Position numbers and translations under genes: made by a program. Shown here one piece after another: positions 28,380 to 52,966 of a stretch of 64,000 bases of DNA. The stretch's first letter is position 1. Every line of letters begins with the position of its first letter. The DNA lies in the NCBI GenBank assembly GCA_029001845.1, contig JAREWP010000055.1, positions 1-64,000 on the forward strand. The letters run 5' to 3'. The notes beneath the pieces were generated by a model that was given only the letters and a program-made list of their open reading frames with translations, ran no database searches and had not been told where the DNA came from. The stretch is from Candidatus Magnetocorallium paracelense. GTDB taxonomy: Bacteria; Nitrospirota; Thermodesulfovibrionia; Thermodesulfovibrionales; Magnetobacteriaceae.

Positions 28380-29909
28380 ATGTGGGACATGGTAAGCTTA
28401 AAACCAATGAGAGTACTTGTCTATTTCTCCCTTTTTTGCTTTGCTTTCGTTCTCCGGTTTCCATATTTCTTTTATTATGTAATCGATTGGGATGAGAGCA
28501 CTTATATTATTATGGCCCAGGAACTCCTCAACGGAAACCTTCCTTATATAAACCTCTATGAATTTAAACCTCCAGTCGCATTTTTGTTTTATGGAGTGTT
28601 TATTTATTTATTTGGAAAAACTATTCTTGCCGTCAGAATAGGTGGACTTATTTGTATTTTTCTGGCTGCCTGCTTCATTTATGAAACAGGCAGGAATATG
28701 TATCACAAAAGGGCCGCCCTGTGGGGTTCTCTTTTTTTCATAATTTTTTCCATGACTCTTGATCCGGGAAGTTTAGGTGCTACCCAAACGGAGCACTTTG
28801 CTTTATTGCCGATCAGCTGCATGCTGTTTTTGCTGTTAGCCCGAAAAAGGACGGATGTAAATATCTTTTTAATTGGCTTTTCATTGAGCATAGGAGTTTT
28901 AATTAGATCTAATTTGGCTTATCTCGTTCTAGGGGTTAGCCTTATTATAATTGTAGAGACATTTATAAAGGAAAAAAACAGACTAATAAAGACATTTTTA
29001 ATTTTTGGGGCCGGTCTTTTCTTGTTACCTCTATCGATAGCGTGTATTTACGTCTATCAAGGATATTTAGATGTGTTAATTAAGGCTACTATTATAGCTC
29101 CGCTGGCATTTGCATCGGAATACGATTACAGTATGTCCCAACGTTTTTCAAATTTTTTCTCGTTGATCGTGAAAAGTTTTTATTCCGAAAATTTTCTGAT
29201 ATGGATTACCGTTATTTGCGGTCTGTGCATCGGCTCTCTTAAAAAATTTAAGGAGTATAGAAAACTTATATGGTTTCTTGTGTTTCTTTTTATTTCAGTT
29301 AGTTTATCTATCGTTCAAACCGGTCATACATATTACCACTACTTAATCCAACTGATTCCTTTTATGGTTTTACTGACGGCCTTTTTTTTATCTTTTTTGT
29401 TTAACAAGAAAATTTGGGGTATCAGTGTTATATTGGTCTTGCTTCTTTTGTATCCTTTAAAGCCTGTGATAGCCAGTTACAGTGCAATGCTTCGAAGCGA
29501 TTATGGTTTAAGGCTATATCAGTATGATAATGGAAATCAGGTCATTGACTATTTAAATAGAAAAGGGGTTAGCGGAAAATATCTCTTTTTCCTGCAATAC
29601 CATATCGGATACTGGCTAACGGGGGCTAAACTACCTACAAAGTTTGTCCATCCATCCAATATTGTTCGTATTAGTTATCTTCATTCAATGGGGGATCATA
29701 ATGCAACTCCCGAGAGAGAGTTAAAAGGGATTTTCAGCAAGGAACCTGCTTTTATTATAGTACCTCAATATATATGGTATTTCGATTTGAACTGCCAGAG
29801 ATGTTTTCATATTCTGCAAATGGAATTAGAAGATAACTATACTGTCGATAAGATTATTGGACGTACTATTATTTTCGAACGAAGAAAAGGTGACAACGGA
29901 CTTTTATAA
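28380..29909 (+). CDS. GT-C membrane glycosyltransferase 1 (family 39-like)
   Basis: 509 residues with about eleven hydrophobic helices. The first outer loop holds DWDESTYIIMAQELLNG (Asp38-Glu39 as likely catalytic acid/metal pair) and LYEFKPPVAFLF, as in ArnT/PMT-type enzymes that use a polyprenyl-phosphate sugar at the outer face. The C-terminus is a short periplasmic domain. It is the first of twelve such genes. It lies 23 bases after queF but probably starts a new functional block. Sugar and acceptor are unknown. Confidence 0.82.
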   Translation: MWDMVSLKPMRVLVYFSLFCFAFVLRFPYFFYYVIDWDESTYIIMAQELLNGNLPYINLYEFKPPVAFLFYGVFIYLFGKTILAVRIGGLICIFLAACFIYETGRNMYHKRAALWGSLFFIIFSMTLDPGSLGATQTEHFALLPISCMLFLLLARKRTDVNIFLIGFSLSIGVLIRSNLAYLVLGVSLIIIVETFIKEKNRLIKTFLIFGAGLFLLPLSIACIYVYQGYLDVLIKATIIAPLAFASEYDYSMSQRFSNFFSLIVKSFYSENFLIWITVICGLCIGSLKKFKEYRKLIWFLVFLFISVSLSIVQTGHTYYHYLIQLIPFMVLLTAFFLSFLFNKKIWGISVILVLLLLYPLKPVIASYSAMLRSDYGLRLYQYDNGNQVIDYLNRKGVSGKYLFFLQYHIGYWLTGAKLPTKFVHPSNIVRISYLHSMGDHNATPERELKGIFSKEPAFIIVPQYIWYFDLNCQRCFHILQMELEDNYTVDKIIGRTIIFERRKGDNGLL

Positions 29910-30019
29910 GTTTGAAAGAGAATAGTAAAAAAAGAAGTAAAAATCAATTTATTTTGTTTTTATTTCTGGTTCACTTCCTTTAAATCAGCCTACCTTTACA
30001 GTCACATAAAAATCTTTGT

Positions 30020-31693
30020 TTAAGGTTCTACGCCCGGCAGTTTCCATTTTTTATTCAGATAATATCTGCTTTTCCATTTCTCCGGTTGTTTCCCCGTAAA
30101 AACATAATATTCGCCAATCATTGTTTGCTTAAATTTATAACAGTAAGAAGAACTCATAAACCGCTTGAGTTGAATATCGTTTTTATGTAGTATTAAAGCG
30201 GCTTTATCTCCGGCATTTACATATTCGTCGTAGAGTATGTCTCTGTAACCGCCGGGTGATAAACCATGGGTGGAAGCAATCATTTGCTCATTACTTTCAA
30301 AGAGCAATCGCCATTTTAAAAAATAGGTTGCTCTCACTCTTGAAATTCCTTCTTTTTTAAGATATTCCATTATTCCGGTAAGTGTTTTACAGGATGTGGG
30401 GACGTTAACAACATCTTTTTCGTTAATTAAAACATCGTCATTAACGGAGCAGGGGCGGATATAGGAGACATGATTAAAAACTCCGAAACATACTAATAAT
30501 AACAGTACACAAACTCCGCCGGTTCTATGTAATATATTGTGGTTTATTATTAATGTATTTAAACCATACCCGATCAGTATCGCCAGTAAGGGATAGAGAG
30601 GCAGGAAATACCTAGGGCTTCTTTGAGTCCCCTTTGAAATTACACTGAAAATGAAAAAAATAACAATAAATAACAGAATTATGGATATTATATTAAGGGC
30701 ATTATTGTTTAAAAAATTTTTTTCTCTGTTGAATCTGTTTTTAGTAATCAGAAGAATATAAGGCAATGTGTTAAAAAATAAGTATATTGTGAGTCCAAGG
30801 TAAATTATATACTCCAAATAGGCTTTGCCGGGAATGTCCGTTATGTATTGATCTGCATTTCTTCCAAAAAAAAATGCAGGTAAGTAGTTGAAGACTATCT
30901 TTAGGGGGGTATCTTTAAAAAGAAGCAAGATGTTTTCGCCTCTTTGATTGAGGATGTAATGAATATTAAGAAAGTCGTTTGTCAGATTATAGTAAATAAC
31001 AGGCAAAAGGCCTGTTATACATCCTGCAATAATTAATGAAATCTTTTTAAGAGACCAGAACTTTTTTTTCCAATAAAAAGAGGCGATAAATAATGTAGTT
31101 AAAAGAGGAACGATTAATTCCATATTATAATAGGCGAAACCGCTTGTAAAGCCTAATAGAAGATAGTGAGACCTGTTGTTGTGTTCTTTCTTTATGATCT
31201 CCGTGAAAATATGTAGTATGATAATCGATAGAAAAAGGACGATAATGTATCCGCCCCTCATTTTAAAATGCCATTCAATAAGGGGAGTCGCCGAGGCGAG
31301 AATTATGGATGAGAAGATGGCTGTTTTTTTATTAAAATGAATAAGACAAAATTTATATGTCACGATAATAGTTGCTAACGAGAAAAATAAAGCTATGGAT
31401 TTAAAGGTTAATGACGATACGCCAAAAAGCAGGAATGGTATAACAGCTAAATATGCCTCTATCGCTCCGCCTCCTCCATAGGGCTGGCTTAAGAAGAAAA
31501 TCGGGAAATAGTCCATCATAATAATATGCTTCGCCATAATTCCGACAACAGCCTCGTCGCCGTCTACATGGGATTGCGAAGTTAAAAGGACAGAGAGATA
31601 GAGAAGAAATGATATAGAGACAATAATAAATAAGGGTGAAATTTTGTTGAAGCGAAGATAAGTTAAAAAACTATCGGATTTTTTGAGTAACAT
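30020..31693 (-). CDS. GT-C membrane glycosyltransferase 2
   Basis: 557 residues, polytopic. VDGDEAVVGIMAKHI (Asp46-Glu47) lies in the first loop, followed by LSQPYGGGGAIEAYL, the pattern of family-39-like enzymes whose acceptor loop is glycine-rich. The C-terminal 120 residues (TSCKTLTGIMEYLKKEG onward) form a soluble periplasmic domain. It is the last gene of the leftward block 30020-38801 and converges on the gene before it. Confidence 0.82.
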   Translation of the reverse strand: MLLKKSDSFLTYLRFNKISPLFIIVSISFLLYLSVLLTSQSHVDGDEAVVGIMAKHIIMMDYFPIFFLSQPYGGGGAIEAYLAVIPFLLFGVSSLTFKSIALFFSLATIIVTYKFCLIHFNKKTAIFSSIILASATPLIEWHFKMRGGYIIVLFLSIIILHIFTEIIKKEHNNRSHYLLLGFTSGFAYYNMELIVPLLTTLFIASFYWKKKFWSLKKISLIIAGCITGLLPVIYYNLTNDFLNIHYILNQRGENILLLFKDTPLKIVFNYLPAFFFGRNADQYITDIPGKAYLEYIIYLGLTIYLFFNTLPYILLITKNRFNREKNFLNNNALNIISIILLFIVIFFIFSVISKGTQRSPRYFLPLYPLLAILIGYGLNTLIINHNILHRTGGVCVLLLLVCFGVFNHVSYIRPCSVNDDVLINEKDVVNVPTSCKTLTGIMEYLKKEGISRVRATYFLKWRLLFESNEQMIASTHGLSPGGYRDILYDEYVNAGDKAALILHKNDIQLKRFMSSSYCYKFKQTMIGEYYVFTGKQPEKWKSRYYLNKKWKLPGVEP

Positions 31694-31787
31694 TTTTATG
31701 GTTCTATGCAGTAAAAGTAAGTCCTAAAAGTCTTCCAGGCTAAGCCATCACAGGCAGTGATTTTCATTTATGTGTATTTACAGGCGA

Positions 31788-33332
31788 CTAAGGCGCTTTT
31801 ATAAAGACTCTGAAATGATCGTCATAGGAAGGGTCTCTTTTATATGCCATAGATCCTATTCGGATGATTGTGTCCTCAGAGGGAGTCACGGGTTCTCCGC
31901 GTATAAGGTTTACTCCATTATAGAAAATTAAAGCACTTTTCTCTTTTGTACTCTCCCGTAAATTATTTATTTGGCTGTAAACATGAATTTTAAATCTCCC
32001 TGATTGTAAGTCATAGACCTTTAAGGGAGTAATTATGGATAGATCTCCTATTATTACATTTACCCCCTTTGCCGTCAATTCATTATACAGTCTGTCGAAT
32101 CTTACCCAGCTGTTACTGGTTTCTGAGAGTCTGCTGCCTACATTATAAACGCTCAGAGAGCCGCCTGTTCTGATGAATGTGTGAAAATAATTGGTTGTCA
32201 GATAAAAGAGGTTCAGAACGATCACGGATGTCAATATGAAGTGTCCGGTTTTTCGGACAAAGCCGTTCTTATTATTAATCAGGGGAACTGCAAGAGAGAC
32301 CAGCAAAAGAGGATAGAGATAGAGGGGTATAAGAAAATAGTGCGGTGCAAAATTAGCAGCAATGAGCATTATAAAAACAATCAGGAATAAGGGAAAGAGA
32401 ATTGTCATCTTCTCGTTATCAGTAAGTTTGTTTTTTCGTAATGACCAGATTCTGGCGGCGGCAATTAAAAGAGTGGCTATCGTTATATAGGGTATTACAT
32501 TATAAGTGATTTGCCCCACGTGCCTTTGATAAAAAATGACGCCGTTTAAAGCGTTGTTTAACAGGGCCGGAATATTGGGGATATCCGATATCATGGCTCT
32601 GAATGAACCTTCAGATGCCTTTTCAGACCACAAGGCGATATCGTCTGTAAAGAGAAGCTGGTAAATCCTGATTCCCATTCCCCCTGAAAAACCGACTCCC
32701 ATCATCCATATAACAGGCTTTTTCGCAGGGTTAAAACGATAGGCAATTGAGGAAGACAATAACAGAGCCGCCGGTATGGTGAGACCGATTATATGATTAT
32801 ATGTTAGAAGGCCAATAAAAAAGCCGCCGGTAAAAGCAAAGAATATACCGAAAAAGAGACTTCCGCTATAATAGACCCTCACGGATTTTGCCATAAACAG
32901 AAATCCCGTTAAGGAGAGAAAAAGATTAAGAGCCTGAATTTCCGCTGCGAATCTCGACAACATCACAAAGGCGGGAAAAGTACATAATAATAAACCTGCG
33001 TAGCGATACATTCCACCGGAGGGATGGAAGTGTTTGAACAGGATCATCGCCAGAATAACGGATAATGTATTAAATACCGCTGACGTTAAGCGCATCACCT
33101 CTATTTTGTAACCAAATATCTCGAATAGCGGCCACATGAGATAATGATAAAGAGCACCAACATAGGGCGCCATGCCGCTTAAAGGTCTCAGCCCTCTGTC
33201 GATCATCCATGATTTAAGAATCGTAAGGGCTTCGTCGTAATGCAGTCCGACTACTTTGTCAGGATATATGGTAAGGAGCGTTATTGAAATTATTATAATG
33301 CAGAAATCGGGGATAAATTTTTTAAATTTCAT
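31788..33332 (-). CDS. GT-C membrane glycosyltransferase 3
   Basis: 514 residues. The N-terminal loop has LHYDEALTILKSWMI (Asp33-Glu34). The C-terminal NYFHTFIRTGGSLSVYNVG matches NYFYTFKKNGGSLLSYKAG in the gene at 41062, and the YDEAL/GDEAL loops also correspond, so these two are paralogues on opposite strands. About eleven membrane helices precede a periplasmic tail. 94 bases separate it from the next gene in its operon. Confidence 0.82.
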   Translation of the reverse strand: MKFKKFIPDFCIIIISITLLTIYPDKVVGLHYDEALTILKSWMIDRGLRPLSGMAPYVGALYHYLMWPLFEIFGYKIEVMRLTSAVFNTLSVILAMILFKHFHPSGGMYRYAGLLLCTFPAFVMLSRFAAEIQALNLFLSLTGFLFMAKSVRVYYSGSLFFGIFFAFTGGFFIGLLTYNHIIGLTIPAALLLSSSIAYRFNPAKKPVIWMMGVGFSGGMGIRIYQLLFTDDIALWSEKASEGSFRAMISDIPNIPALLNNALNGVIFYQRHVGQITYNVIPYITIATLLIAAARIWSLRKNKLTDNEKMTILFPLFLIVFIMLIAANFAPHYFLIPLYLYPLLLVSLAVPLINNKNGFVRKTGHFILTSVIVLNLFYLTTNYFHTFIRTGGSLSVYNVGSRLSETSNSWVRFDRLYNELTAKGVNVIIGDLSIITPLKVYDLQSGRFKIHVYSQINNLRESTKEKSALIFYNGVNLIRGEPVTPSEDTIIRIGSMAYKRDPSYDDHFRVFIKAP

Positions 33333-33349
33333 TTTTTGTCGTTAAAAAA

Positions 33350-33510: not shown

Positions 33511-35316
33511 TCAGTGTAATTTTTCCAGCTCCTCCGCTTTTTTCAAATCCTTTTTCGCCATTTGGGCTTTTCCTGACTTTTGGTAAGCAATGCCGCGGTT
33601 CTTAAACAGAATCGCAGTTTGCGGAGAGTGGGCGATCGCCTTGGAGTAGTCCGCTATTGCTTTATCATATCTCCCTGACATCTCATAGGCAATACCCCGG
33701 CTGTTATAGGACATTGCTTTGTTAGGATCGATTTTTATGGCGTATGAGCAATCTTTGATCGCATCTCCATATCTTTTTATTGAAACATAGAGGCCGCATC
33801 TGTTTATAAGCGCGTCGGAATAGAGAGGATTCAATTCGATTGCTTTATTTAAATCGCTCATAGCAAGTCGGAACTGTCCGGTTTCGATAAAGACAACTGC
33901 TCGATTATTATAAACATCCGCTGCACGGGGCGACAACTTAACCGCTGTGTTTAAATCTCCGATAGCTTTTGTATAATTGCCTGATTCGATATAGGCGTTT
34001 CCGCGATTGTTATATCCTGCGGAAACATCGTTAAAGAGTGTCAGTTCGTGTGTCCATAAAGTTAAAGAGTTTTGCCAAAGGGAAACTTGTTGTTTTGAGA
34101 TGATTGATAAAGTTGCAAGGATTACAAGAGCGATCGTTATTTCAAGAAACCTTTGAAGTCCGGCTTTGTCGATTCCGGTAAAGTATTTGGAAAAAAGGGA
34201 ATGGCTTCCCCATGTTAACATGATAAAGAGCCCGATTAACGGGATATAAGTATAGCGGTCCGCCATCGAGTGAACACCTACCTGCACCAGGCCGATCACC
34301 GGCACAAGAGTTCCAAGGTACCACAGCCAACCGGTCAACAGGTAAGGGTGCTTTTTTCTCATGATCACTGCTACAGAACTGACCAAAACAAGCAATCCAC
34401 CCGCTCCTGCTCCCTGCCAAAAATTGATGCTCTCTCCGGGATGTGGATAAAATACGGCAAGGTCTAAGGGCCAAAACATTTTGCCAATATACGCTACATA
34501 GGAAACAGCACCGTTCGTTATCCTTACCCACAGGGGGTACGAATCCAGGGAAGCCACAGCCCCTCCCCATTTCTGAGCGAAAAAAGCGGTTATACTAGAT
34601 ATAATGGTAAGTATAAAAAGAGGTGTTTTTTCTATAATTAATTTTCGCGAAGATTCTCTTTGGAAACGCTCTGTAGGCCAGTAGTCAAGGAGTAAAAGTA
34701 TAAAGGGCAGTGTTACCAGCATGGGTTTGGACATGAGTCCCAATGCATAGAAAAACATAACGGAAATATACTTCAATTTTAAGGAATTGTCTTTAACAGG
34801 GAGGGGCAGGCTCTTTGTGTAGCTTACATAAGCACTAATCGTGAGCATAAAAAACAGGGTGCTCAGAACATCCTTACGTTCGGACACCCATGCAACTGAT
34901 TCCACATGAAGGGGGTGAAGACCGAAAAGAGCGGCTACAAAGGCGCTTTGCCACAAGGCGCCGGTCATCTGTTTTAATATAAGAAACAACAATATTGTAT
35001 TGGCCAGATGGAGGAGAAGAGAGGAAATATGGTGCTTGCCGGGATCCATGCCAAAGATCGTTGTGTCAGCCATATGGGAGAGCCAGGTGAGGGGGTGCCA
35101 GAAATTACCGTATGTCGTCGTAAAGGCCCATAGGATGTTGCTTTTTGTCAGACCGTACCTGACAAAAGGATTTTTCGTTACATAGACATCGTCATCGTAG
35201 TTGACAAAATCGAAATTATGTACCTGCCAATAAACGGCAAGGATTATTATAGTTAAAGAGATTATTACTAAATAGTTTATTTTTGAATGAAACATGGAAA
35301 TCAGGTTATTTTTCAT
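33511..35316 (-). CDS. GT-C membrane glycosyltransferase 4 with TPR tail (TMTC-like)
   Basis: 601 residues. The membrane domain (about 1-420) begins with FVNYDDDVYVTKNPFV and has FWHPLTWLSHM and GLHPLHVESVAWVSERKD, the hallmark of bacterial relatives of the animal TMTC O-mannosyltransferases. Five TPR repeats follow (e.g. YNNRGNAYIESGNYTKAIGD), facing the periplasm, presumably to bind protein acceptors. Its start codon lies within a copy of the TTTTCATGCTTTGT repeat read on the other strand (35308-35343). Gap to the upstream gene is 21 bases. Confidence 0.86.
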   Translation of the reverse strand: MKNNLISMFHSKINYLVIISLTIIILAVYWQVHNFDFVNYDDDVYVTKNPFVRYGLTKSNILWAFTTTYGNFWHPLTWLSHMADTTIFGMDPGKHHISSLLLHLANTILLFLILKQMTGALWQSAFVAALFGLHPLHVESVAWVSERKDVLSTLFFMLTISAYVSYTKSLPLPVKDNSLKLKYISVMFFYALGLMSKPMLVTLPFILLLLDYWPTERFQRESSRKLIIEKTPLFILTIISSITAFFAQKWGGAVASLDSYPLWVRITNGAVSYVAYIGKMFWPLDLAVFYPHPGESINFWQGAGAGGLLVLVSSVAVIMRKKHPYLLTGWLWYLGTLVPVIGLVQVGVHSMADRYTYIPLIGLFIMLTWGSHSLFSKYFTGIDKAGLQRFLEITIALVILATLSIISKQQVSLWQNSLTLWTHELTLFNDVSAGYNNRGNAYIESGNYTKAIGDLNTAVKLSPRAADVYNNRAVVFIETGQFRLAMSDLNKAIELNPLYSDALINRCGLYVSIKRYGDAIKDCSYAIKIDPNKAMSYNSRGIAYEMSGRYDKAIADYSKAIAHSPQTAILFKNRGIAYQKSGKAQMAKKDLKKAEELEKLH

Positions 35317-35343
35317 GCTTTGTTGTGACCAGGAGGATCAAGG
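35308..35343. repeat. Covarying-hairpin repeat, leading part across a gene junction
   Basis: TTTTTCATGCTTTGTTGTGACCAGGAGGATCAAGGG. The CAT at 35314-35316 is the start codon of the leftward TPR glycosyltransferase, and the right end overlaps the stop of the gene upstream. Read leftward it supplies CTCCTGGTC before ATGAAA, which could serve as the leader. Confidence 0.65.
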
Positions 35344-36975
35344 GTGATTTCTGTAAAAATCTTTGTCAATGAATTTATCATAAACACCAATATTCATTAG
35401 CACAATGGTTTTAAGCCTCAGGGGATCGAAAATATTTCCTCGTATAATCAGATCCAGCTTATCGTAAAAAAGAGCAAGTTTTTTATCTTTAATGAAGTTT
35501 GTCCCTGTTCGAATGGATTTGACGTAACCATCAGGGACAGCCCGATCAAAATGACCGACACGCCAATCAGGATTGCGTTTCATCGGGATTCTTGCAAGTA
35601 AAGGATCGGCGAGTGCCGGAGGATCGATAAAGTGAACTTTATATCCGGCCTTATATCCATAATAACCGATATTACCGAATACTGCGATTTGTCTGTTTGT
35701 GTATTCGGGCCGTTCCTGTTCGTTGTCAAACGTAAATCTAATCTTACCTTTGCGATATAAACCAAAATGTTCTTCCCAATGCCCTCTTTCGTCAGCGATC
35801 CCGTGGTTATTGATTTGTCCGTCCCCGGCATTGTCATAACGGAGCGCCGCCAGAAGAGTTGGTGAAGGAACAAGAAAGGCAATGACTGTGACCAGGGCGA
35901 TGGCAATGCTTATGTTCCTGACTTTACTTACATCTAAAATATTCACTACACAAAATACAGCAAAAAGAAAGGGCGTACTAAAAAAACGTCCGCTCATGAA
36001 ATCTCCGCCAATCCAGAGAATATAAATCAGATATAAAAGAATACCGATAGAAATCGGAAAAAGACTTCTCTGCCTTGAAAAAAAAGATAATCCAATGCCA
36101 AGGAAAATTACAATTGATGTCAAAAGGTCTCTTTGAAAGCCGTCTATGAAGTAACTGACTCCCTGACTGACCAGATCGAAACGTGGAATACCGGCCCCTA
36201 ATTTTGCATATGCCGTATTTGGAAAGGGAAAACCATAATAAAGTATAGAAAAAATCTCCCATATTATTAATGGAAGAAAGCATATGATTATCGACCATGC
36301 GCCTTTTTTAAATTTGGTTTTTTTAAAATTTAATAACAGCGTTGGAAGGAATAATAAAAGAGTGTCCAAACGGTTCAATGCCGCTGCGCATGCCAGGAGA
36401 GAGAGAGTTGTAAATTTTTTATCAACCCTTTTATCGCTTATAACGGCGGCAAAGAAAATCGCTGCAATCAGATGGGAAAGGCTGTTCTCCAGTCCGGAAG
36501 TAGAGTAGTCGACAAAAGCTTTAGAGAGAGATAGAGTTAACAGACCTAAAGCAGCCGATTGGGGAGCAGGGGCGATTTTTAAACAAAAAACAACCAGTAC
36601 CGTTAGAGATAAAAAAAGATTCAGAAGAATGCTTAATAGAAACAATTCATCTGAAAATATATATCCAAAAGATAAGAAGAAAAACCAAAGCGGATGGGTA
36701 TATGCCTGCACCCGATAACCGGCGTTAAAATTTGGGCCGATGCTTTGGTGTAAATTCTCAACCACTCGAAAAGTAATAAAGGCGTCTTCACTTACCCATG
36801 CACTCATAAAAATAATTATGAAAACAAAAAACAGTGTAAGTAAGGGATATCCCCAAGCTGTGTTTTTTTTGTTAAGAAATTTTTGATTTTCGGTTGCAAG
36901 CGGCATGGGTTGTTTTTTATCGAACTCAATGACGAAAAATTTATAGAAATCAGATGTTTTGAAAAAAACGAGCAT
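35338..36975 (-). CDS. GT-C membrane glycosyltransferase 5 (AftB/ZomB-like)
   Basis: 545 residues. The loop SEDAFITFRVVENLHQ (Glu-Asp pair), then YRVQAYTHPLWFFFLS, is typical of the arabinofuranosyltransferase/ZomB-like branch rather than ArnT. DYSTSGLENSLSHL is a second conserved patch. About eleven helices and a periplasmic tail. The longest start is 36975; the ATG at 36906 (MPLATENQ) is an alternative. It is a paralogue of the next gene. Confidence 0.8.
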   Translation of the reverse strand: MLVFFKTSDFYKFFVIEFDKKQPMPLATENQKFLNKKNTAWGYPLLTLFFVFIIIFMSAWVSEDAFITFRVVENLHQSIGPNFNAGYRVQAYTHPLWFFFLSFGYIFSDELFLLSILLNLFLSLTVLVVFCLKIAPAPQSAALGLLTLSLSKAFVDYSTSGLENSLSHLIAAIFFAAVISDKRVDKKFTTLSLLACAAALNRLDTLLLFLPTLLLNFKKTKFKKGAWSIIICFLPLIIWEIFSILYYGFPFPNTAYAKLGAGIPRFDLVSQGVSYFIDGFQRDLLTSIVIFLGIGLSFFSRQRSLFPISIGILLYLIYILWIGGDFMSGRFFSTPFLFAVFCVVNILDVSKVRNISIAIALVTVIAFLVPSPTLLAALRYDNAGDGQINNHGIADERGHWEEHFGLYRKGKIRFTFDNEQERPEYTNRQIAVFGNIGYYGYKAGYKVHFIDPPALADPLLARIPMKRNPDWRVGHFDRAVPDGYVKSIRTGTNFIKDKKLALFYDKLDLIIRGNIFDPLRLKTIVLMNIGVYDKFIDKDFYRNHP

Positions 36976-37004
36976 AACAGGATAAATTGTGAAAATGCAA
37001 GATT

Positions 37005-42564: not shown

Positions 42565-42609
42565 CCCAACCCGGCTGCCTTTTATGTTCTTATAACAGAC
42601 AGTTTTCAG

Positions 42610-44541
42610 ATGAAAGAATTTTTTAATTACAGAATAACCCACATTTTTTTGGTGTTAGCAATCGGACTTATTGCCTACGCAAACTCAATGAATGGTCCTT
42701 TTGTGATAGATGATACAAGAAATATCGTCGAGAATCCATTGGTCAGAGACCTGAACTATTTTATCAATCTTTCAGAGGCAAAAACTGTTTGCCACAATGC
42801 AGATTCTCATATAACTTTGTATACCGCTTTCAAGTCAAGGTATATCGGGTATTTGAGTTTTGCTTTGAATTACTTTTTGCACGGATTAGAAGTTAAGGGG
42901 TATCATATTATTAACATTATCGTTCATCTGTCAAACGCCCTGTTAGTCTATTTTTTAGTACTTCTTACATTCAGTACCCCCTTTCTTGTTTCTTTATCGC
43001 ATAGATATTCCGCCGATGCTGCTCTATTTACGGCATTGATTTTTGTTGCCCATCCTCTCCAGACACAGGCAGTTACCTATATTGTTCAGAGATTCGCCTC
43101 TCTTACAACGGTGTTTTATCTGCTGTCGATCGTGTTTTATGTGAGGTGGAGACTTGGGAAAGCAGGTATAAAGGAGTTCGGAAAAGAGAGAGGAAGGGTA
43201 GTAAAGCGGCCTTTCAGTTATTTATTGTCTCTGCTTTGCGTTATTGCGGCGATGAAGACAAAGGAGATCGCCTTTACTTTGCCTTTAATCATTATGTTAT
43301 ATGAGTTTGTTTTTTTTGAATTGGATTTTAAGAAAAATTTTGTCTGGTTGATCCCTTATTTGTTAACACTTTTGGTTATCCCATTGACTCTTTTTGTCAT
43401 CGATCCCCCTGCCGGGAGCGCTGAAACGAAGATGAGAGTCGCTACCGATATTTCGCGCGCCGATTACCTGATGACCGAATTCAGGGTTATTGTTACTTAC
43501 ATAAGGCTTCTTTTTCTTCCTGTAAATCAAAGATTTTGGTATTACTATCCCATTTATAATAATTTTTTCGATCCAAATGTCTTTTTCTCTTTCCTCTTCA
43601 TTATATTTGCAGCAGGTGCGAGTTTTTTTCTTTTTCTCCGTTATCGATTTTCTCACCCCTACTTAAGAGCAATCTTTTTTGGGATTTTCTTTTTTTTTAT
43701 CGCATTATCGGTGGAGTCCGGTATTGTCCCTATTGCCGACGTTATTTTCGAGCACAGGGTTTATCTCCCTTCAAGCGGTTTTTTTATCGCTTTTACAGTA
43801 GTGGTGTTTTCGATAGGGAGGCGAAAAGAGGTCGTTGTTTGTCTGAGTTCTATTATACTTATACTGACTTTATTAACTATTCAGAGAAATAAGGTCTGGA
43901 GCAGCGAAATATCGCTATGGGAGTATGAAGTTTCGTTGAATCCCTACGATGGGAAACTTCATAATGATTTGGGTAATGCCTATCTTCGTGAAGGGAGAGT
44001 CGATGAAGCGATCAAGGAGCTCAAAGAAGCGATAAGACTCGATCCGGAACATGTGGATGCATACTATAATCTGGGCTCTCTTTACGCTTCTCAGGGTATG
44101 GCGAAAGAGGCCTTCAGAGAGTTCGGATTTGCAATCGAAATAAAGCCTGATCATTTCAAGTCTCATCAAAATCTTGGCGTACTTTTAATGCGCAGCGGAA
44201 GACTCGAAGAGGCGGCAACCGAGTTTCGTCTGGCCCTTGCATTTAAAGACAATAATCCGGAACCTTTCAAAAAGAGTCCCAATATCGCGTTGATTCATTA
44301 TAACCTGGGTGTCGTGTTAAAAAAATTGAATCGTTTCGATGAGGCGGTCAGAGAATTTCAGACTGCGTTGAGTATTCATCCGGATCATGCAAAGTCTCAC
44401 TATTCTTTGGGAACGGCGTATGCTCTTTTGCAGAGATATGACGAAGCGATTTTTGAGATAGAAGAAGCCCTGAGGCTGGCGCCTGAAAATGAGGCTTTCA
44501 GGCAGGAGTTACAGAGGTTGACACATTTGCTCCGTAAATAG
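42610..44541 (+). CDS. GT-C membrane glycosyltransferase 9 with TPR tail (TMTC-like)
   Basis: 643 residues. The membrane domain starts NGPFVIDDTRNIVENPLV (Asp-Asp pair) and has SRYIGYLSFALNYFLHG and FVAHPLQTQAVTYIVQR, as in bacterial TMTC relatives. Five or six TPR units follow (e.g. LHNDLGNAYLREGRVDEAIK). The last codons (LLRK stop) come from the dispersed repeat that begins at 44523, so the natural C-terminus may once have been different. Confidence 0.86.
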   Translation: MKEFFNYRITHIFLVLAIGLIAYANSMNGPFVIDDTRNIVENPLVRDLNYFINLSEAKTVCHNADSHITLYTAFKSRYIGYLSFALNYFLHGLEVKGYHIINIIVHLSNALLVYFLVLLTFSTPFLVSLSHRYSADAALFTALIFVAHPLQTQAVTYIVQRFASLTTVFYLLSIVFYVRWRLGKAGIKEFGKERGRVVKRPFSYLLSLLCVIAAMKTKEIAFTLPLIIMLYEFVFFELDFKKNFVWLIPYLLTLLVIPLTLFVIDPPAGSAETKMRVATDISRADYLMTEFRVIVTYIRLLFLPVNQRFWYYYPIYNNFFDPNVFFSFLFIIFAAGASFFLFLRYRFSHPYLRAIFFGIFFFFIALSVESGIVPIADVIFEHRVYLPSSGFFIAFTVVVFSIGRRKEVVVCLSSIILILTLLTIQRNKVWSSEISLWEYEVSLNPYDGKLHNDLGNAYLREGRVDEAIKELKEAIRLDPEHVDAYYNLGSLYASQGMAKEAFREFGFAIEIKPDHFKSHQNLGVLLMRSGRLEEAATEFRLALAFKDNNPEPFKKSPNIALIHYNLGVVLKKLNRFDEAVREFQTALSIHPDHAKSHYSLGTAYALLQRYDEAIFEIEEALRLAPENEAFRQELQRLTHLLRK

Positions 44542-44912: not shown

Positions 44913-44925
44913 CCGTAGTGTTTAT

Positions 44926-46824
44926 ATGCAAAAAGAGATAAAAATTCAAGTCACCAGATTATCGATAATTGCGCTTCTTTTATTGTTTTACGCCTCCTTC
45001 CTTTACACGAAAATTGATTTTATTACCGACGACTTAGGCAGGCATATTACAAACGGCAGGATTGTATTAGAGGACAGAGGGGTTTTGTTTACAAATTTCT
45101 ACTCCTCTTCCAACTACGATTTTCGTTTTATCAACCATCATTGGCTGTCAGGCACGATTTTTTATGTTCTATATCTGGCAGGCGGTTTCAAGCTTATTGT
45201 ACTATTTAAAATTGTTATCATGTCCATTACTTTTCTGATCGTTTTTAATCTCTCTTTAAGGCGATCGTCGTTTTTTGTTGTGTCTGCACTGTCTGTCCCA
45301 TTCATAATTATACTCTCTCAAAGATCGGACGCCAGGCCGGAGATGTTTTCCTATCTCTTTATCGTTTTATTCCTCTATATATTGTTCGACTTCGAAAAAG
45401 GAGTTTCAAAGAAGATTTTTGTCCTGCCTCCTTTGCAACTTTTATGGGTGAACATACATATCTTTTTTTTTATGGGACCCTTTTTACTTTTGCTTTTCTT
45501 TATCCATAGTCTGATTCGAAAAAAGAGGGAGTCGGCAGTGATGTTGTTAAAGGCAGGTGGTTTGATGGCCGTCGTTTTGCCGATTAATCCCAATTTTATC
45601 GAAGGGGCGTTACACCCGCTCAACATTCTTGGAGAATATGGATATGAGGTAATTGAAAATGTTTCGCCATTTATCGTGAATAACCATATAGTAAGTATTT
45701 CGATAAAGACATACATAATAATGCTGCTCTTTTTTATTATTTCTTTCTTATTCGCCTTAAGACGGCAGAATTTCGTTACAACGACGCTTTCTCTTTTTGT
45801 TGTCCTTTCGAGTATTCTTATGCTTAGAAATCTGGCTCTCTTTGCTTTGATCGCATTGCCTTTTATGTGCGAAAATCTTTCCCTGCTGACTCCCCGAAAG
45901 AAGATCGTTTTCCTCTCCATCATGCTTTTGCCGCTTATCTTTGTTTTCCAAAAATCTCCCACAATAGTGAGAGAGTCCGGGGCAGGGATAAAAGATCAAT
46001 CACCGGGGGCTGCCCGGTTTTTCGAGGAAAACAAGATTTCGGGAAATGTCTTTAATAATTATGATATCGGCGGTTATATAATTTTTAACCACTTTCCCGG
46101 TGTCAGACCTTTTGTTGATAACAGGCCTGAAGCATATCCCTCTTATTTTTTTAAAGACACCTATATCCCAATGCAGAGAGACGATATGAAATGGCGCGCA
46201 ATGGTGGAAAAATTCGATTTTACATCCATATATTTCAGTTCCGGGGAAAATACGGATTTTGGAAGAGGTTTTATAAAGAGGCGTCTCAACGACAACGATT
46301 GGGGGCTTGTTTATGCTGACAGATTCGCCATGATTTTTGTCAGAAGAGACGCTTATCCGGAATTATTCGAAAGAAGGATCACTGTTGCAAATGCAGAGGA
46401 TACATTGTCCCGTCTTTTAAAGTCATCGGATATGCAGGATGTTTTGGCCGCTGCCGAACTGTCGGAACGCCTTGGAAGAGCAGATATCGCCGTAAAAACC
46501 TATGAGCATATTCTCTCTGTCGAACCTGACAATGTAAGAGCTCTTTTTTCGCTGGCTTCCGTTTTTTCGACAACCCGCTCTCGGGGGCTTTTAGAGAAAT
46601 CTGCAGAGTATTACAGCAAGGCAATATCTTCCGGATATGACATACCGATGATTTTCAATCTTATGGGGAAGGTTTATTTCGATCTGAATGAGTACGAAAA
46701 AGCAAAAAACGCATGGCTTTCGGCATTGATGAGAAATCCTTTTGACAGTACGGCAGGTAATTACTATAAGCAGTTTAAAAAGCTGGACAGAAAGCATAAT
46801 TTGACCGGGAGTAGAGGTGATTAA
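44926..46824 (+). CDS. GT-C membrane glycosyltransferase 10 with TPR tail
   Basis: 632 residues. FITDDLGRHITNGRIVLED supplies an Asp pair in the first loop, followed by INHHWLSGTIFYVLY. The periplasmic part has ARFFEENKISGNVFNNYDIG and PFVDNRPEAYP, a segment seen in other bacterial PMT-like proteins. About three TPR units close the protein. It overlaps the next gene by eight bases. No Shine-Dalgarno site is evident; a dispersed repeat abuts the start. Confidence 0.82.
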   Translation: MQKEIKIQVTRLSIIALLLLFYASFLYTKIDFITDDLGRHITNGRIVLEDRGVLFTNFYSSSNYDFRFINHHWLSGTIFYVLYLAGGFKLIVLFKIVIMSITFLIVFNLSLRRSSFFVVSALSVPFIIILSQRSDARPEMFSYLFIVLFLYILFDFEKGVSKKIFVLPPLQLLWVNIHIFFFMGPFLLLLFFIHSLIRKKRESAVMLLKAGGLMAVVLPINPNFIEGALHPLNILGEYGYEVIENVSPFIVNNHIVSISIKTYIIMLLFFIISFLFALRRQNFVTTTLSLFVVLSSILMLRNLALFALIALPFMCENLSLLTPRKKIVFLSIMLLPLIFVFQKSPTIVRESGAGIKDQSPGAARFFEENKISGNVFNNYDIGGYIIFNHFPGVRPFVDNRPEAYPSYFFKDTYIPMQRDDMKWRAMVEKFDFTSIYFSSGENTDFGRGFIKRRLNDNDWGLVYADRFAMIFVRRDAYPELFERRITVANAEDTLSRLLKSSDMQDVLAAAELSERLGRADIAVKTYEHILSVEPDNVRALFSLASVFSTTRSRGLLEKSAEYYSKAISSGYDIPMIFNLMGKVYFDLNEYEKAKNAWLSALMRNPFDSTAGNYYKQFKKLDRKHNLTGSRGD

Positions 46825-48616
46825 AAGAGAAACTTTGTTGGATTGCTTTGTTTTTATTGTAATAGGGGGAAGTTTTTTTTATCTCCTCTCTGCGACGTGG
46901 TTAAAGTGGGGAGATCTCGTTGTCGATACAGGGCGGGAATTATGGCTTCCGGCTCAATTGCTCAAGGGGAAGGTTTTATATAGAGACCTTTTTTATGAAT
47001 ACGGTCCTTTGCCCCCCTATGTTATCTCTCTTTTGTATAAAGTATTTGGTGTTCATATTAACACTATCGTTGGTTGCGGAATTGTATTAACGATTTTCAT
47101 AAGCCTGTATCTATATAAGCTTTCTCTCTGTTTTCTGGGCAAGTTGGAGTCCGGCCTGGTCGTTGTCACATTTCTTTTTGCCTTTGCCTTTGGATATTAT
47201 TTTTATGCAGGTATTTTTAATACAATCTTACCATATAGTTTTGCTTCTGTTTTTTTTCTTCTTTTCGCTATTACTGCCCTCTACTTTTTCGTTTTATTTA
47301 TAAAAAAAGGGGAAAGGTATTATCTCTTGCTCTGGGTGTTCTCTTGTACTGCAATGCTTTTATGCAGGATCGAGTTGTCTTTTTTATTATGGGGAGTTTT
47401 TTTAGTAGTTGCAATTATATTGGTTTTATTTAGAAGAGATTTGGGGGCAGGTCCGGCGGAGGTTACCCTTTTATTCCCTGTTTTAGCGGCCTTCCTGATT
47501 TATGCTCTCTTTTTAGTTTCCACCTCATCTTGGGAAGGATTTTATGAATCGACGATTCATCATATCCTTTCGGTGCAGAAAAATTCTTTTAATGATGCCG
47601 TTTCAGGTATGGACAATATTGGCGGAAACACTTTATTAATGGTGAAATCTTTGATTCTTCATCTGTTTTATATTTCCATAGCAGCAGGGGGAGTCATACT
47701 GACCGGACGTTTCAGGATAAACAGAGCAGGTCGGTTTTTTTGTTATCTCCTGACATTTTGCGCATTATCAGGGTTCTGGTTTCATGTCGGTTATAGTGGA
47801 GAAGATCATATTCAATACCGTCTTCTTCCGGTTATTATATTGTCAGGTGCAGTCAGTACAACTGTCGCTTTGTCAAAAAGAGTGGGGGACGATAAAAAGA
47901 ACATAACGCTTTTGTCTGTTTTTCTCGTTGCTCTGGTTTTACTATTACGCAATTTTTTTTATTCTTCGCCACACAGTGTTTATGGATTCTATTTACTGGC
48001 AGTACCACTAATGGTATATTATGTATTTTTATTAAGGCTTACCTCAGAAGCGTTTCGTTTCATTTCTCCGAATTTTTCGGCGTCTGCTTTTTCGGGTATA
48101 TTGATTGTTTTCTTTTTATTACTGATTATTCCTCATTGGAGAATATCTTCAAATCATTATAAACAGCGCATGGCGTCGATAGTTACCGAAAGAGGAACTC
48201 TTTTCTTCATGCACGATCTCAGAACCGTACGGCTTTTTGAAGCTATCGATTTTTTGTCAAAACATGTCAGGCCTGAAGAGAGCATGGTTGTGATTCCCGA
48301 GGGGGTTGGCGTCAATTTTTTTACCGGCCGTGAGAATCCGTGCGGTTACTACAACTTTACCCCGACTGTCGTCGATGTTATTGGAGAGGAGAAGATTGTT
48401 CATGAATTTAGTGAAAAGAGGCCGGACTATATTGTTATAGTTCAACGAAGGACAACAGAGTATGGTTATCCTTCATTTGGTGTCGATTATGGTAATAAAA
48501 TCAATGACTGGATTAAAGAAAAGTATGGCCTGAATAAGATTATAGGGAGTTATCCCTTTACCAGAGACGACGATTATGGAATTGCCGTTTATAAAAGAAG
48601 GCCGGAACGGCTTTGA
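46817..48616 (+). CDS. GT-C membrane glycosyltransferase 11
   Basis: 599 residues from a GTG start with GAGG just upstream inside the previous gene. VVDTGRELWLPAQLLKGKV and RDLFYEYGPLPPYVISLLYK match GT-C enzymes with a D..RE loop. About twelve helices. The periplasmic tail has SKHVRPEESMVVIPEG and RRTTEYGYPSFGVDYG, both common in this family. Translational coupling suggests it works with the TPR-bearing gene before it. Confidence 0.82.
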   Translation: MIKRETLLDCFVFIVIGGSFFYLLSATWLKWGDLVVDTGRELWLPAQLLKGKVLYRDLFYEYGPLPPYVISLLYKVFGVHINTIVGCGIVLTIFISLYLYKLSLCFLGKLESGLVVVTFLFAFAFGYYFYAGIFNTILPYSFASVFFLLFAITALYFFVLFIKKGERYYLLLWVFSCTAMLLCRIELSFLLWGVFLVVAIILVLFRRDLGAGPAEVTLLFPVLAAFLIYALFLVSTSSWEGFYESTIHHILSVQKNSFNDAVSGMDNIGGNTLLMVKSLILHLFYISIAAGGVILTGRFRINRAGRFFCYLLTFCALSGFWFHVGYSGEDHIQYRLLPVIILSGAVSTTVALSKRVGDDKKNITLLSVFLVALVLLLRNFFYSSPHSVYGFYLLAVPLMVYYVFLLRLTSEAFRFISPNFSASAFSGILIVFFLLLIIPHWRISSNHYKQRMASIVTERGTLFFMHDLRTVRLFEAIDFLSKHVRPEESMVVIPEGVGVNFFTGRENPCGYYNFTPTVVDVIGEEKIVHEFSEKRPDYIVIVQRRTTEYGYPSFGVDYGNKINDWIKEKYGLNKIIGSYPFTRDDDYGIAVYKRRPERL

Positions 48617-48671
48617 ACCATATATATATGTTTGCAGTAATCTTTGGTTTTAGGTCAGTTAAGAAAGAGTA

Positions 48672-50675
48672 ATGGATCGGTACAAAGAAAAGAGTGACAA
48701 GACGAGAAGGAAGTATAGGGTTTTAGCTGTTTTTTTTCTTATTATCCTGCCGTTGGCGGTGTTTTGGGAAGTGAGCGGGTTCGAGTTCCTTTCCTGGGAT
48801 GACGGGGCTAATATTTATGATAATCCTCGTTTCGATCCGGTCACATTAGATAGCATTCTGCTTTTCTGGAAACAGCCCTTTTTAAGTCTATATATACCGG
48901 TGACCTATACCCTGTGGTCTGTGCTTGCCTGGATTTCTCATTACTTTATCTTGCCGGGAGACAGTGAAAAGATAAGTCCTCTTCTTTTTCATATGGCAAA
49001 TCTGTATATTCATATACTCAATGGTATTATCGTTTTTTCCATTTTAAATATATTGAGAGCAAGGACTGAAGATAGTGCGGAAGTTACAGTCTGTACCTTT
49101 ACATATAAATTGGCTCCCTGCCTGGGGGCGTTGTTTTTTCTGGTCCATCCAATCCAGGTTGAAGCGGTTTGCTGGATTACTGGGATGAAAGATCTCCTGT
49201 GCGGTCTTTTTTCTTTATTCGCTGTCAGGCAATATCTTGTTTACGCCGGTTTGCACTCTTACACTGAAAGAAGGGGTACTGTGCGCACCGGGTCTTTTTA
49301 TTATTGTTCGGCATTATTTAGTTTTGTTTTAGCCCTGTTGTCAAAGCCGGGGGCGGTAGTCATCCCTATATTACTTTTTATACTGGATAAGTGGATTTTA
49401 AAAAGGTCCTTAAAGGAGATTATTCTTTCATTAACAATGTGGTTTGTTTTATGCCTGCCGGCAGTAATAATTACTAAGATATCTCAACCGAACTTTACTT
49501 TGGATTTTGTACCTCCTCTATTGGAAAGGCCATTTGTCGCCGGAGACGCTGTTGCGTTTTATCTCTGTAAATTGTTTTTACCCTTTCATTTGGGCCCGGA
49601 TTACGGTCGTTCTCCCGAATATCTCCTGACTCAATGGTGGGCCCGCCTTTCCTGGCTTTTTCCGGCGGGTGTTGCGTTTTTTCTGTTTTTTTTTAAAAAG
49701 TATCGCCATCTCCTGGTCTCTTTCTGGATATTTACTGTCGGCATTCTTCCTGTGCTTGGCTTTGTGCCTTTCGGATTTCAAAATTTTTCGACTGTAGCAG
49801 ATCGTTATCTCTATTTATCGATGCTCGGGCCGGCAATAGCCATTTCGAGAGGTACGGCACGAAGCGCCGGAAAGAATGTTTTTATCCTTTTCATAGTCGT
49901 TATTTCAATAATGGGGTTTGTCAGCCGAAATCAGGCAGAGTACTGGCGAAGCTCATTTGCTCTTTTCAAGCATGCCGTTGTCGTGAATCCCGACAGCCCC
50001 GTGGCTTATAATAATGTAGGTTTTGCTTTGTATGAGCAGGGCAAATCTGATGAGGCGCTTTCCTATTATCTAAAAGCCCTGGAGCTCGATCCCGGTTATG
50101 CAGATGTCTGTTATAATCTCGGAGTGCTATATATGGATAATGGCTTACTCGATAAAGCCATTGTCTATTACAGGAAGTCTATTGTGTTGAAAGAGGACTT
50201 TACCGAGGCATTTAACAATATAGGTGCGACCTTGGCCAGGCAGGGCGCTTTTGAAGAGGCGATTTCATACTATCGCAAAGCTATTCTTATTGAACCGGAT
50301 TTTGCAAATGCTCATTTTAATCTGGGCTATGCTCTCTCAAAGAGAGGGCGGGCCGAAGAGGCGGTCGTTCATTATTCTGCGGCGATTCGTTATAATCCGG
50401 GATATGGTGACGCCTACAATAATCTTGGCATTATTTTAGTCTCCCGCGGCATGCTCGATGAGGCTGTTTTGAATTATACAAAAGCAATTAGTATCGACCC
50501 CTCTTATACCAGGGCCTATAATAATCTGGCGAATGCGTTGATGAAACTGGGGAGGCGCAAGGAGGCGATAAAGCACTATCGGGAAGCACTTCGTTTGGAC
50601 CCCGATAACAACGCCATCAGGAACAATCTGGAAATCGCTCTTCGAAATTACGGAAAGAATACTTCCATTAAATAA
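48672..50675 (+). CDS. GT-C membrane glycosyltransferase 12 with long TPR tail (TMTC-like)
   Basis: 667 residues. FLSWDDGANIYDNPRFDP and FLVHPIQVEAVCWITGMKD define the TMTC-like membrane half. About six TPR units fill 440-660 (e.g. YNNVGFALYEQGKSDEALSY and YNNLGIILVSRGMLDEAVLN), close to the O-GlcNAc-transferase type. It is the last glycosyltransferase before the secreted protein gene and the longest of the set. Confidence 0.86.
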   Translation: MDRYKEKSDKTRRKYRVLAVFFLIILPLAVFWEVSGFEFLSWDDGANIYDNPRFDPVTLDSILLFWKQPFLSLYIPVTYTLWSVLAWISHYFILPGDSEKISPLLFHMANLYIHILNGIIVFSILNILRARTEDSAEVTVCTFTYKLAPCLGALFFLVHPIQVEAVCWITGMKDLLCGLFSLFAVRQYLVYAGLHSYTERRGTVRTGSFYYCSALFSFVLALLSKPGAVVIPILLFILDKWILKRSLKEIILSLTMWFVLCLPAVIITKISQPNFTLDFVPPLLERPFVAGDAVAFYLCKLFLPFHLGPDYGRSPEYLLTQWWARLSWLFPAGVAFFLFFFKKYRHLLVSFWIFTVGILPVLGFVPFGFQNFSTVADRYLYLSMLGPAIAISRGTARSAGKNVFILFIVVISIMGFVSRNQAEYWRSSFALFKHAVVVNPDSPVAYNNVGFALYEQGKSDEALSYYLKALELDPGYADVCYNLGVLYMDNGLLDKAIVYYRKSIVLKEDFTEAFNNIGATLARQGAFEEAISYYRKAILIEPDFANAHFNLGYALSKRGRAEEAVVHYSAAIRYNPGYGDAYNNLGIILVSRGMLDEAVLNYTKAISIDPSYTRAYNNLANALMKLGRRKEAIKHYREALRLDPDNNAIRNNLEIALRNYGKNTSIK

Positions 50676-51048
50676 TGTCAGCAATGTATCTCAAAGCACA
50701 TACTTTCGTACAACAGCTGTTGTAAGATAGACACATGACGGTTGGAAAAACTCATGTCAGATAAGGATGTTCTTTATATGACTGATGCCGGCATGTTAGT
50801 TGCATATATATACTGGTCAGGTTGGCCGAAAATAACAGTTTCACAACCTTATACGAAGTGGATTTTCAATGCTTTTGATCAATTATCGACAGGCTGTTCA
50901 GGCGCCTGATAAATTAAAGAAAGGAGGAGGAAGAGGGAACGCCGACACTGAACTCTGTTGTGATATTAATACAATAAATGTATTTTTTTTGCCACAATCG
51001 GAGAGCTGAGTAATTAGAAAATAATAATAATAATTTCCCTGACGATGC
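50676..51048. other. Intergenic region ahead of the secreted protein promoter
   Basis: No gene seen. ACAACAGCTGTTGTA at about 50710 is a palindrome. CGCCGACACTGAACTCTGTT near 50941 resembles one end of the element at 427-600. The stretch probably separates the glycosyltransferase mRNA from the strong promoter at 51049. Confidence 0.35.
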
Positions 51049-51077
51049 TTGACAAAAACAAATCTTTCAATTATAAT
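51049..51077 (+). promoter_or_regulatory. Consensus sigma-70 promoter
   Basis: TTGACA (51049-51054) and TATAAT (51072-51077) are both perfect, with a 17-base spacer. This is the strongest promoter match I found in the window. Start of transcription near 51084 gives a leader of about 230 bases before the secreted protein ATG. Confidence 0.85.
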
Positions 51078-51083
51078 ACTCAC

Positions 51084-51313
51084 AAATTTCATATTTTATG
51101 GCCGGCTGGTTACATAGTTTAAAAAACATACCTAATAAAATGAGGATTAATATGTATAAATACCCAGCCATCATAGCACATAATATAAAAGGGGGTGAGA
51201 GGCACAAAGATATACGGTGAATATATCCTGCATTCGGATGTTAAATCCGAAAACGAGCACTTTACTCTATTAAATTAAGTGTTTTTTTATTTAAACTGAA
51301 AGAAAAGGAGGTT
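51084..51313 (+). promoter_or_regulatory. Long 5' leader with a possible 40-codon upstream ORF
   Basis: An ORF from ATG 51098 (MAGWLHSLKNIPNKMR...) has in-frame ATGs at 51140 and 51152, the last after a GAGG, and stops at 51220. A hairpin TTCGGAT/ATCCGAA (about 51235-51252) and a poly-T stretch near 51283 follow. No known riboswitch was recognised. Long leaders are common on abundant surface-protein mRNAs. Confidence 0.4.
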
Positions 51314-52966
51314 TTGATGAGTAAGTATTTTAAGTTATTTTTCTTCGTGACATTAATTGCCGTTCTTACTGCGGGAACCGCAGGAGCGGCCTCTGTCAAG
51401 GTTTATGCCGGCGGTAGCGATACATCAAGTGGTGTAAGCACCTATTTACTGGCAAACGAGGCTTATAAGAGCGGTTCTTCCATTGGCGTTTCTGACAATT
51501 CCAGCACAATTCACCCTCTGGCAATGGTTACTCCCAACGCCAATAACCCTCAGTCATTGAAATTCTGCTTTGCAGACAGCAAAGGCGGTTTTGAAAATGC
51601 ATCAACCGGGTATACCTATTATATGGCGGTATGGAAAGACACAACGGGAACAACAAGCGCAGAATACACTGCCGACAACACGGTAGAGACAGGCGAGCTT
51701 CTTCCGGTTGTAAGCAGCGCAACAACTAACCTTCCTGTTGGAGTATCGTCCGTATCGAGCGGTTGTATTAATTTCGATACCGGGTCGGGTAAATCCCTTC
51801 AGTACAATCTGACAGGTCAAATTTCCGGAGGAAGCCTGTCGAACATTACTACATCCGATAAAGTTATTGTAATGCACATTACAGGCGATACCTCTACCGG
51901 TGCAACCATAGGACTGCCGAGCACTTTATTTACTACCGCAAACGTAGGTTTTAACTGGTATGTGGCATCCGGCCAGACTTCGAGCGATGTGCTTACAATG
52001 CAGATAATCGAGAACAGCTCTCAGACCTACACATCGACTTTTGCCGAGTTTATGAATCAGTATGTAGCCGGTGTTAAGCCTCTGGCTGACGCTAAAATCG
52101 ACGTAGACGCCAGCAGAATGAAGTTTACAAACAATGCGACAACCGATACCGTAACAGTCACGATCGCTGACAGAAACGGTCTTGCCACTACCGGCACGCC
52201 TTGGTATGACGGTTCAAGCTACCTGGACAGATTTCTTCTGACAACGTCACAGAATGCCGGCTCCGTTTCGGATGTAATAGTTGACCTCGAAGCCTCCAAT
52301 CAGGCGGTTTCCAAGATGATGAGCGGTTCGACAACTCTTACATATGATTCTTCAAACAGCAGATGGCGTATAACAAGTGACGTTTCAGTGGGTGGCAGTG
52401 CATCGGATATCTCCTTTACTGCAACTGTAGATACCACAAACGTTATTGACACAAGAAGCTTTATGGCCACCGTAAATTCCAGCGCAGCAGCCGGCTATAC
52501 TTCATACAGCTATCTGTCGAGCGGGTCTGCAGGTTCATGGACAATAAACGCTTACCAGGGAATTATTCCTTACATTCTAACACTGGACGGCTACGAGACT
52601 TTCTGTATGGTAGCTAATAATTCCGGCGGAACAGTTGATGTTATACTTGACCTCATCGGTTCCGAGGGCACGGTTTCAGGACTCACCAATCTTGATCTCG
52701 GTGAGATCGCTGACGATAAGCTTGCTTACGTTCAGTTCGACGGAACAGATATTACCCTTATGAACGGCACCACTGCCGGTACAGCAGTCGACATATCGGG
52801 CATGGGTAGTGACGCAGTAAGGTATGCAGGTAAAGTTACCGTTACAGGCGACCAGGATAACATCTGGACGTCATGTATACAGAAGCAGGGTACTACTTCA
52901 GTTGATAAGAGAATCGTACCTGTTTTAACTAACAGAACAAGCACCGGCGTTGACTGGGGTAACTAA
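51314..52966 (+). CDS. Secreted Ser/Thr/Gly-rich surface protein, S-layer candidate
   Basis: 550 residues. A Sec signal peptide (KYFKLFFFVTLIAVLTAGTAG, cut near AGA/ASV) is followed by a mature chain rich in Ser, Thr, Gly, Asn and Val and poor in Lys and Arg, with four Cys. Alternating beta-type stretches (TDTVTVTIADRNG, DISFTATVDTTNV) suggest immunoglobulin-like folds. No SLH, TAT or anchor motif is visible, and I recognise no family. Strong signals (consensus promoter, AAAGGAGG eight bases before ATG, perfect terminator) point to high expression. The twelve glycosyltransferases next door could modify its many Ser/Thr. The S-layer role is inferred. Confidence 0.75.
   Translation: MMSKYFKLFFFVTLIAVLTAGTAGAASVKVYAGGSDTSSGVSTYLLANEAYKSGSSIGVSDNSSTIHPLAMVTPNANNPQSLKFCFADSKGGFENASTGYTYYMAVWKDTTGTTSAEYTADNTVETGELLPVVSSATTNLPVGVSSVSSGCINFDTGSGKSLQYNLTGQISGGSLSNITTSDKVIVMHITGDTSTGATIGLPSTLFTTANVGFNWYVASGQTSSDVLTMQIIENSSQTYTSTFAEFMNQYVAGVKPLADAKIDVDASRMKFTNNATTDTVTVTIADRNGLATTGTPWYDGSSYLDRFLLTTSQNAGSVSDVIVDLEASNQAVSKMMSGSTTLTYDSSNSRWRITSDVSVGGSASDISFTATVDTTNVIDTRSFMATVNSSAAAGYTSYSYLSSGSAGSWTINAYQGIIPYILTLDGYETFCMVANNSGGTVDVILDLIGSEGTVSGLTNLDLGEIADDKLAYVQFDGTDITLMNGTTAGTAVDISGMGSDAVRYAGKVTVTGDQDNIWTSCIQKQGTTSVDKRIVPVLTNRTSTGVDWGN

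Follow-up and report, generated by a model that had tools for sequence, protein, structure and literature searches.

Closest described systems

In Pseudoalteromonas tunicata the S-layer protein Slr4 assembles into a square lattice and is encoded next to a T2SS operon (PMC7821379). The family has been published from Gammaproteobacteria, where slr4 is found beside T2SS genes (PMC7821379, PMC11094555). Kuenenia stuttgartiensis has a heavily O-glycosylated S-layer protein (PMC5088730), a precedent for an O-glycosylated S-layer in a Gram-negative-type cell and a precedent only, not an indication of kinship of the protein or the enzymes. In the literature searched we found no description of an S-layer in Magnetobacterium or of a cell coat for its family. 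The enzymes to which the present locus can be compared are the TMTC1-4 O-mannosyltransferases (GT105), with TPRs that lie in the ER lumen (PMC7801869), the PMT/ArnT-type GT-Cs (PF13231), the eukaryotic-type PMTs (GT39), and the arabinofuranosyltransferase AftB.

A block of twelve polytopic genes

The window analyzed here, a stretch of 64,000 nt, includes twelve polytopic ORFs in a row between positions 28380 and 50675, each coding for 500-667 amino acids with 6-12 predicted TM segments. That the series is not interrupted by any unrelated gene, as stated in the first-pass annotation, was confirmed with the ORF list. The QueF gene (27517-28356) precedes the block and the gene for a secreted protein lies beyond the other end. 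One gene is on the + strand, the following five are on the − strand, and the last six are again on the + strand; because of these three orientation blocks the twelve ORFs cannot be one operon. On the same genome, just past the window, contig C36 (L090:1398-6345) has three further polytopic ORFs of 401, 592, and 545 amino acids without a Pfam match.

The claim that all twelve are GT-C glycosyltransferases held for ten of them on the basis of Pfam, the AftB model, alignment, and fold, the support being weak for one (46817), and was not supported for ORFs 39326 and 44926. GTC1 (28380-29909, +), GTC2 (30020-31693, −), and GTC8 (41062-42564, +) are polytopic and match PMT_2 (PF13231) over the cut-off, with E 1.8e-12, 26.3 bits against a cut-off of 26.1, and E 4.5e-9, respectively. 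GTC3 (31788-33332, −) is akin to GTC8 (29% identity, phmmer E 4e-22), and GTC11 (46817-48616, +) is a polytopic protein with a weak PMT_2 match below the cut-off (PF13231 E 0.0086). Unlike the PMT/ArnT-type and eukaryotic-type PMT enzymes, no PF02366 PMT domain and no MIR domain were reported in the block, where the only PMT family found is PF13231. GTC5 (35338-36975, −) and GTC6 (37005-38801, −), 27% identical to each other, are AftB-like over the membrane domain, the latter more weakly (NF041481 E 2.8e-19 and 3.3e-7; for GTC5 also PDB 9dlf, E 2.4e-19). Their scores of 68.6 and 28.7 bits are far below the equivalog cut-off of 1050, and the context differs from that of actinobacterial arabinan. 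GTC7 (39326-41065, +) and GTC10 (44926-46824, +) are polytopic proteins with C-terminal TPRs that gave no family or profile match to GT-C, the hhalign probability of 44926 against the TPR GT-C profile being only 11%.

The remaining three, GTC4 (33511-35316, −), GTC9 (42610-44541, +), and GTC12 (48672-50675, +), share with TMTC1-4 a GT-C domain that has an Asp-Asp pair in its first outer loop and is followed C-terminally by TPRs. In the alignment of TPR GT-Cs D41 of this loop is invariant and D42 nearly so. They differ from the TMTC proteins in being bacterial, in that a Pfam search did not detect DUF1736 (PF08409) in any TPR member, and in the KE(T/Q)xxT motif, replaced here largely by SKP-type residues except in 42610. 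For the membrane domain of 33511 AlphaFold gave a confident model (pLDDT 85, pTM 0.89), which could be aligned structurally with Pmt2 (Z 20.2), oligosaccharyltransferases (Stt3, Z 16-20), and ArnT (Z 16.4), and the top Foldseek match of which was Pmt4 (E 5.5e-4). By our own reading of the model the number of helices is compatible with 11 membrane spans, and the TPRs would therefore sit in the periplasm.

The block is a mixture of divergent subfamilies in which phmmer likeness was found only within GTC3/8 and GTC4/9/12. The members are too divergent for a recent tandem duplication, and this origin of the block was ruled out. The nearest relatives of GTC12 are paralogues in its own genome (42% identity, versus about 30-34% over the domain for the best matches in related genomes), and relatives of GTC9 adjoin a T2SS-module locus in other genera, as described below. 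A paralogue of GTC3, 64% identical, is located far from the block on contig C37 (L084:8500-10050) and points to a fairly recent duplication. A merged count puts the GT-C genes of the source genome, which is the sole one of its genus among those compared, at 48 or more; outside the block the largest cluster consists of three genes and the others are mostly single. GT-Cs are common across the whole bacterial family. From sequence comparison the twelve-gene block is, so far, apparently not known outside the source genome. Gene order adjoining glgA is not kept in relatives, and a single GT-C found near glgA in one of them (G012) looks like chance.

The Slr4-family secreted protein

The gene beyond the block (51317-52966, +) codes for a protein of 549 amino acids with a Sec-type signal-like N-terminus, which matches the Pfam family Slr4 (PF19526) over most of its length with 64.7 bits, the cut-off being 25 (E 1.2e-17). 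The description of this protein as S-layer-like, made previously from the letters of the DNA, was borne out by this match. It resembles P. tunicata Slr4 in the Pfam match, in being secreted, in size (reported as 59 kDa; PMC7821379), and in having a C-terminal module whose family is linked here to the T2SS. The differences are that the present protein comes from a member of the Nitrospirota, that a Pfam search of the window found no gsp gene adjoining this copy, that twelve polytopic, mostly GT-C genes adjoin it, and that in both of the genome's other intact copies the Slr4 part is joined to repeat domains.

The expression signals proposed for the gene were found with one correction. A sigma-70-type promoter, TTGACA-17-TATAAT (51049-51077, +), matches the consensus at 12/12 positions and is the sole perfect one in the window, where three with at most one mismatch were found and 0.68 were expected. 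A ribosome-binding site, AAAGGAGG, is present at 51304-51311 (+), and because of its location the ATG at 51317 is a more likely start than the TTG at 51314 that had been assigned. The intrinsic terminator 3' of the gene is strong, with a stem of 14 pairs (53006-53038, +) followed by a T-run. The leader between promoter and start codon is about 230 bases long (51084-51316); an Rfam search of leader and terminator gave nothing over the gathering score.

Ser and Thr make up 27% of the mature protein, which has a calculated pI of 4.2, and the full ORF ranks 2nd in Ser/Thr content among 210 sampled ORFs of its own genome. Modeling with AlphaFold from three sequences resulted in an unusable structure (pLDDT 32), comparison of the Slr4 profile with PDB chains produced nothing significant, the sole match being to a cadherin (E 0.63), and a search for Slr4 in plasmids gave no match.

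The Slr4 Pfam model finds three copies in the source genome, the other two being parts of longer proteins on contig C93. At this second locus (L063:9220-16811, L064:1937-5149) two proteins of more than 1000 amino acids carry an Slr4 domain at the C-terminus together with InlB B-repeats and repeats of the HISYYD type; a further, third copy there is broken. Beside these copies lies a gene of the exosortase family (TIGR04178, 46.9 bits versus 23), and in one copy the two halves are connected through VPFTDN-TM-KR, a stretch resembling a sorting signal. With the same Pfam model full-length Slr4 was absent from 79 close relatives and 295 other genomes of the phylum, and a scan of the relatives' contigs with the three own copies confirmed no relative.

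The C-terminal module and the T2SS

The C-terminal part of the Slr4 protein (52529-52966, +) is a module that also occurs in small secreted proteins linked to the T2SS in this bacterial family. A profile made from the own Slr4 copies gave weak matches in two relatives, restricted to the C-terminal part, and a search with an alignment to which these matches had been added detected the module in 18 of the 19 genomes of the family, which includes Ca. Magnetobacterium, with 1 to 48 copies in each. In a separate comparison the C-termini of the own Slr4 copies matched the alignment of the relatives' modules with an hhalign probability of 97.3% (E 2.4e-11). In the small module proteins the N-terminus is signal-like and cysteines are conserved, and the top three Ser/Thr contents among the 210 sampled own-genome ORFs all belong to module proteins. 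Runs of module-bearing secreted proteins, with up to 48 copies per genome and many with repeat regions, were observed at G002:C11 (L097:2708-19984) and at other loci of G002, G011, and G014.

The search for the own gspD in other genomes gave an orthologue in 15 relatives (41-46% identical as aligned here). Together with the own locus on contig C39 this makes 16 loci, 15 of them readable past gspD, the contig of G013 ending at this gene. At 13 of the 15 readable loci, in five genera (own C39, G004, G001, G007, G003, G009, G012, G018, G016, G002, G008, G011, and G014), the gene immediately after gspD is a module gene in the same orientation, in some cases with others behind it; G010 and G006 have no module gene at this position. 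The adjacency of gspD and module parallels the published slr4-T2SS neighborhood.

TPR GT-Cs beside module loci

The T2SS-module locus is flanked by TPR GT-Cs in three genera: at the own C39 locus (one TPR GT-C and one gene with a weak PMT_2 match), in all four genomes of genus g3 (two TPR GT-Cs each), and in two genomes of genus g2, namely G001, with the enzyme gene immediately upstream of gspM, and G007, with the enzyme gene on the opposite strand at a distance of about 2.4 kb from the module. Two genomes with T2SS and module, G016 (g4) and G004 (g5), have no GT-C nearby; in four g4 genomes the contig ends less than 1 kb from the modules. By our own calculation, for three of five readable genera at a GT-C coverage of about 4-5% (5 kb) the probability of chance would be about 1 in 1000, a value that applies to a locus picked after the arrangement had been seen in two genera. 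The enzymes of this locus are spread over three positions in the GT-C tree, one for own C39, one for g3 and G007, and one for G001, and this spread suggests that recruitment was repeated. A label test on the tree, in which unlabelled rows are ignored, gave three changes, two of them forced by well-supported branches, and did not show clustering.

In the source genome a TPR GT-C lies within 8 kb of four of four module loci (0.22 expected) and within 5 kb of three of four (0.15 expected), figures that correspond to three independent loci since two share one enzyme, one of the loci being the block itself. Across ten relatives there was no general enrichment: five of 79 module loci had a TPR GT-C within 5 kb versus about 3.7 expected, four of those five being one orthologous locus, in a count limited to the stronger module matches, which leaves aside roughly one fifth of them all. 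At one site away from the T2SS locus (G011:C20, L096:7906-12033) the genes of two module proteins have a TPR GT-C gene immediately behind them in the same orientation. The pairing of the block with Slr4 is not directly traceable in relatives because no full-length Slr4 homologue was found in the 295 other phylum genomes. On whether relatives keep such enzymes beside the homologue, the comparison was mixed: the module does lie beside TPR GT-Cs at the T2SS locus in three genera, and most module loci are not beside a GT-C.

Proposed function and alternatives

Taken together, the membrane genes, the Slr4 protein, and the recurrent adjacency of module, T2SS, and GT-C genes suggest a sugar-coated cell surface and do not prove it. 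Our best reading, to which we assign a probability of roughly 0.5, is that the GT-Cs of the block O-glycosylate a T2SS-exported, Slr4-type coat in the periplasm. The Slr4-type surface (S-layer-like) protein made from the 51317 gene would probably be exported by Sec into the periplasm. There the GT-Cs of the adjoining block, with active sites and C-terminal TPRs that should face this compartment, would move sugars from polyprenyl-phosphate donors onto the numerous Ser/Thr residues of this protein before it crosses the outer membrane. Crossing would probably take place via a T2SS with genes at another site of the genome, for example the one on contig C39, and would be followed by assembly. How the protein is exported, which donors and acceptors take part, and that the block enzymes act on this protein are our inferences, whereas the Slr4 homology, the GT-C fold of a TPR member, and the recurrent adjacency of the module to T2SS genes and TPR GT-Cs are shown. 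Different enzymes may add successive sugars, and the system may be dedicated to the Slr4 protein; against such dedication are the abundance of GT-Cs, the location of most of the relatives' module genes, which are not beside one, and the fact that the block is unknown elsewhere. Against the best reading itself are the separate promoter and terminator of the Slr4 gene, the absence of an adjoining T2SS gene in the window, the T2SS-module loci of G016 and G004 that have no GT-C nearby, the missing enrichment across the ten relatives, and the commonness of GT-Cs in the whole family.

A less probable alternative is that the GT-Cs modify LPS, capsule, or another envelope glycan, performing ArnT- or AftB-like work, with the Slr4 gene as a functionally unlinked neighbor. 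PMT_2 is a broad family that includes lipid-modifying enzymes, two members of the block (35338 and 37005) resemble AftB, which acts on polysaccharide, GT9, capsule-synthesis, and O-antigen-ligase genes are found at 3322-7468 of the same window, and the family-wide abundance of GT-Cs also fits such a role. Against this alternative, the twelve-gene block yielded no gene for a nucleotide-sugar enzyme, a flippase, or a polymerase, TPR GT-Cs recur in three genera next to module proteins that are linked to the T2SS, and every own module locus has one within 8 kb. That the block is instead a general periplasmic O-glycosylation set for many exported proteins, such as pseudopilins and module proteins, with Slr4 at most one of its substrates, would agree with the dispersed, mostly single GT-Cs of the genome, with the position of GT-Cs in relatives, where they border entire T2SS loci (in G001 immediately upstream of gspM), and with the location of most module genes away from GT-Cs, and we consider it unlikely given that the twelve genes beside one Slr4 gene are by far the largest cluster in the genome.

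Extended beyond this locus, the periplasmic O-glycosylation of an Slr4-type coat leads to a more tentative proposal, which we regard as possible rather than probable: that Nitrospirota of the Magnetobacterium family have a T2SS-exported, O-glycosylated Slr4 coat, and that their abundant TPR GT-Cs are its periplasmic O-glycosyltransferases, repeatedly recruited beside their substrates. If this is true, the Slr4 S-layer family, published from Gammaproteobacteria, would extend into the Nitrospirota, a cell coat would be proposed for a family with uncultured magnetotactic bacteria, and bacterial TPR GT-Cs, which have the same architecture as the human TMTC O-mannosyltransferases, would acquire a testable role.
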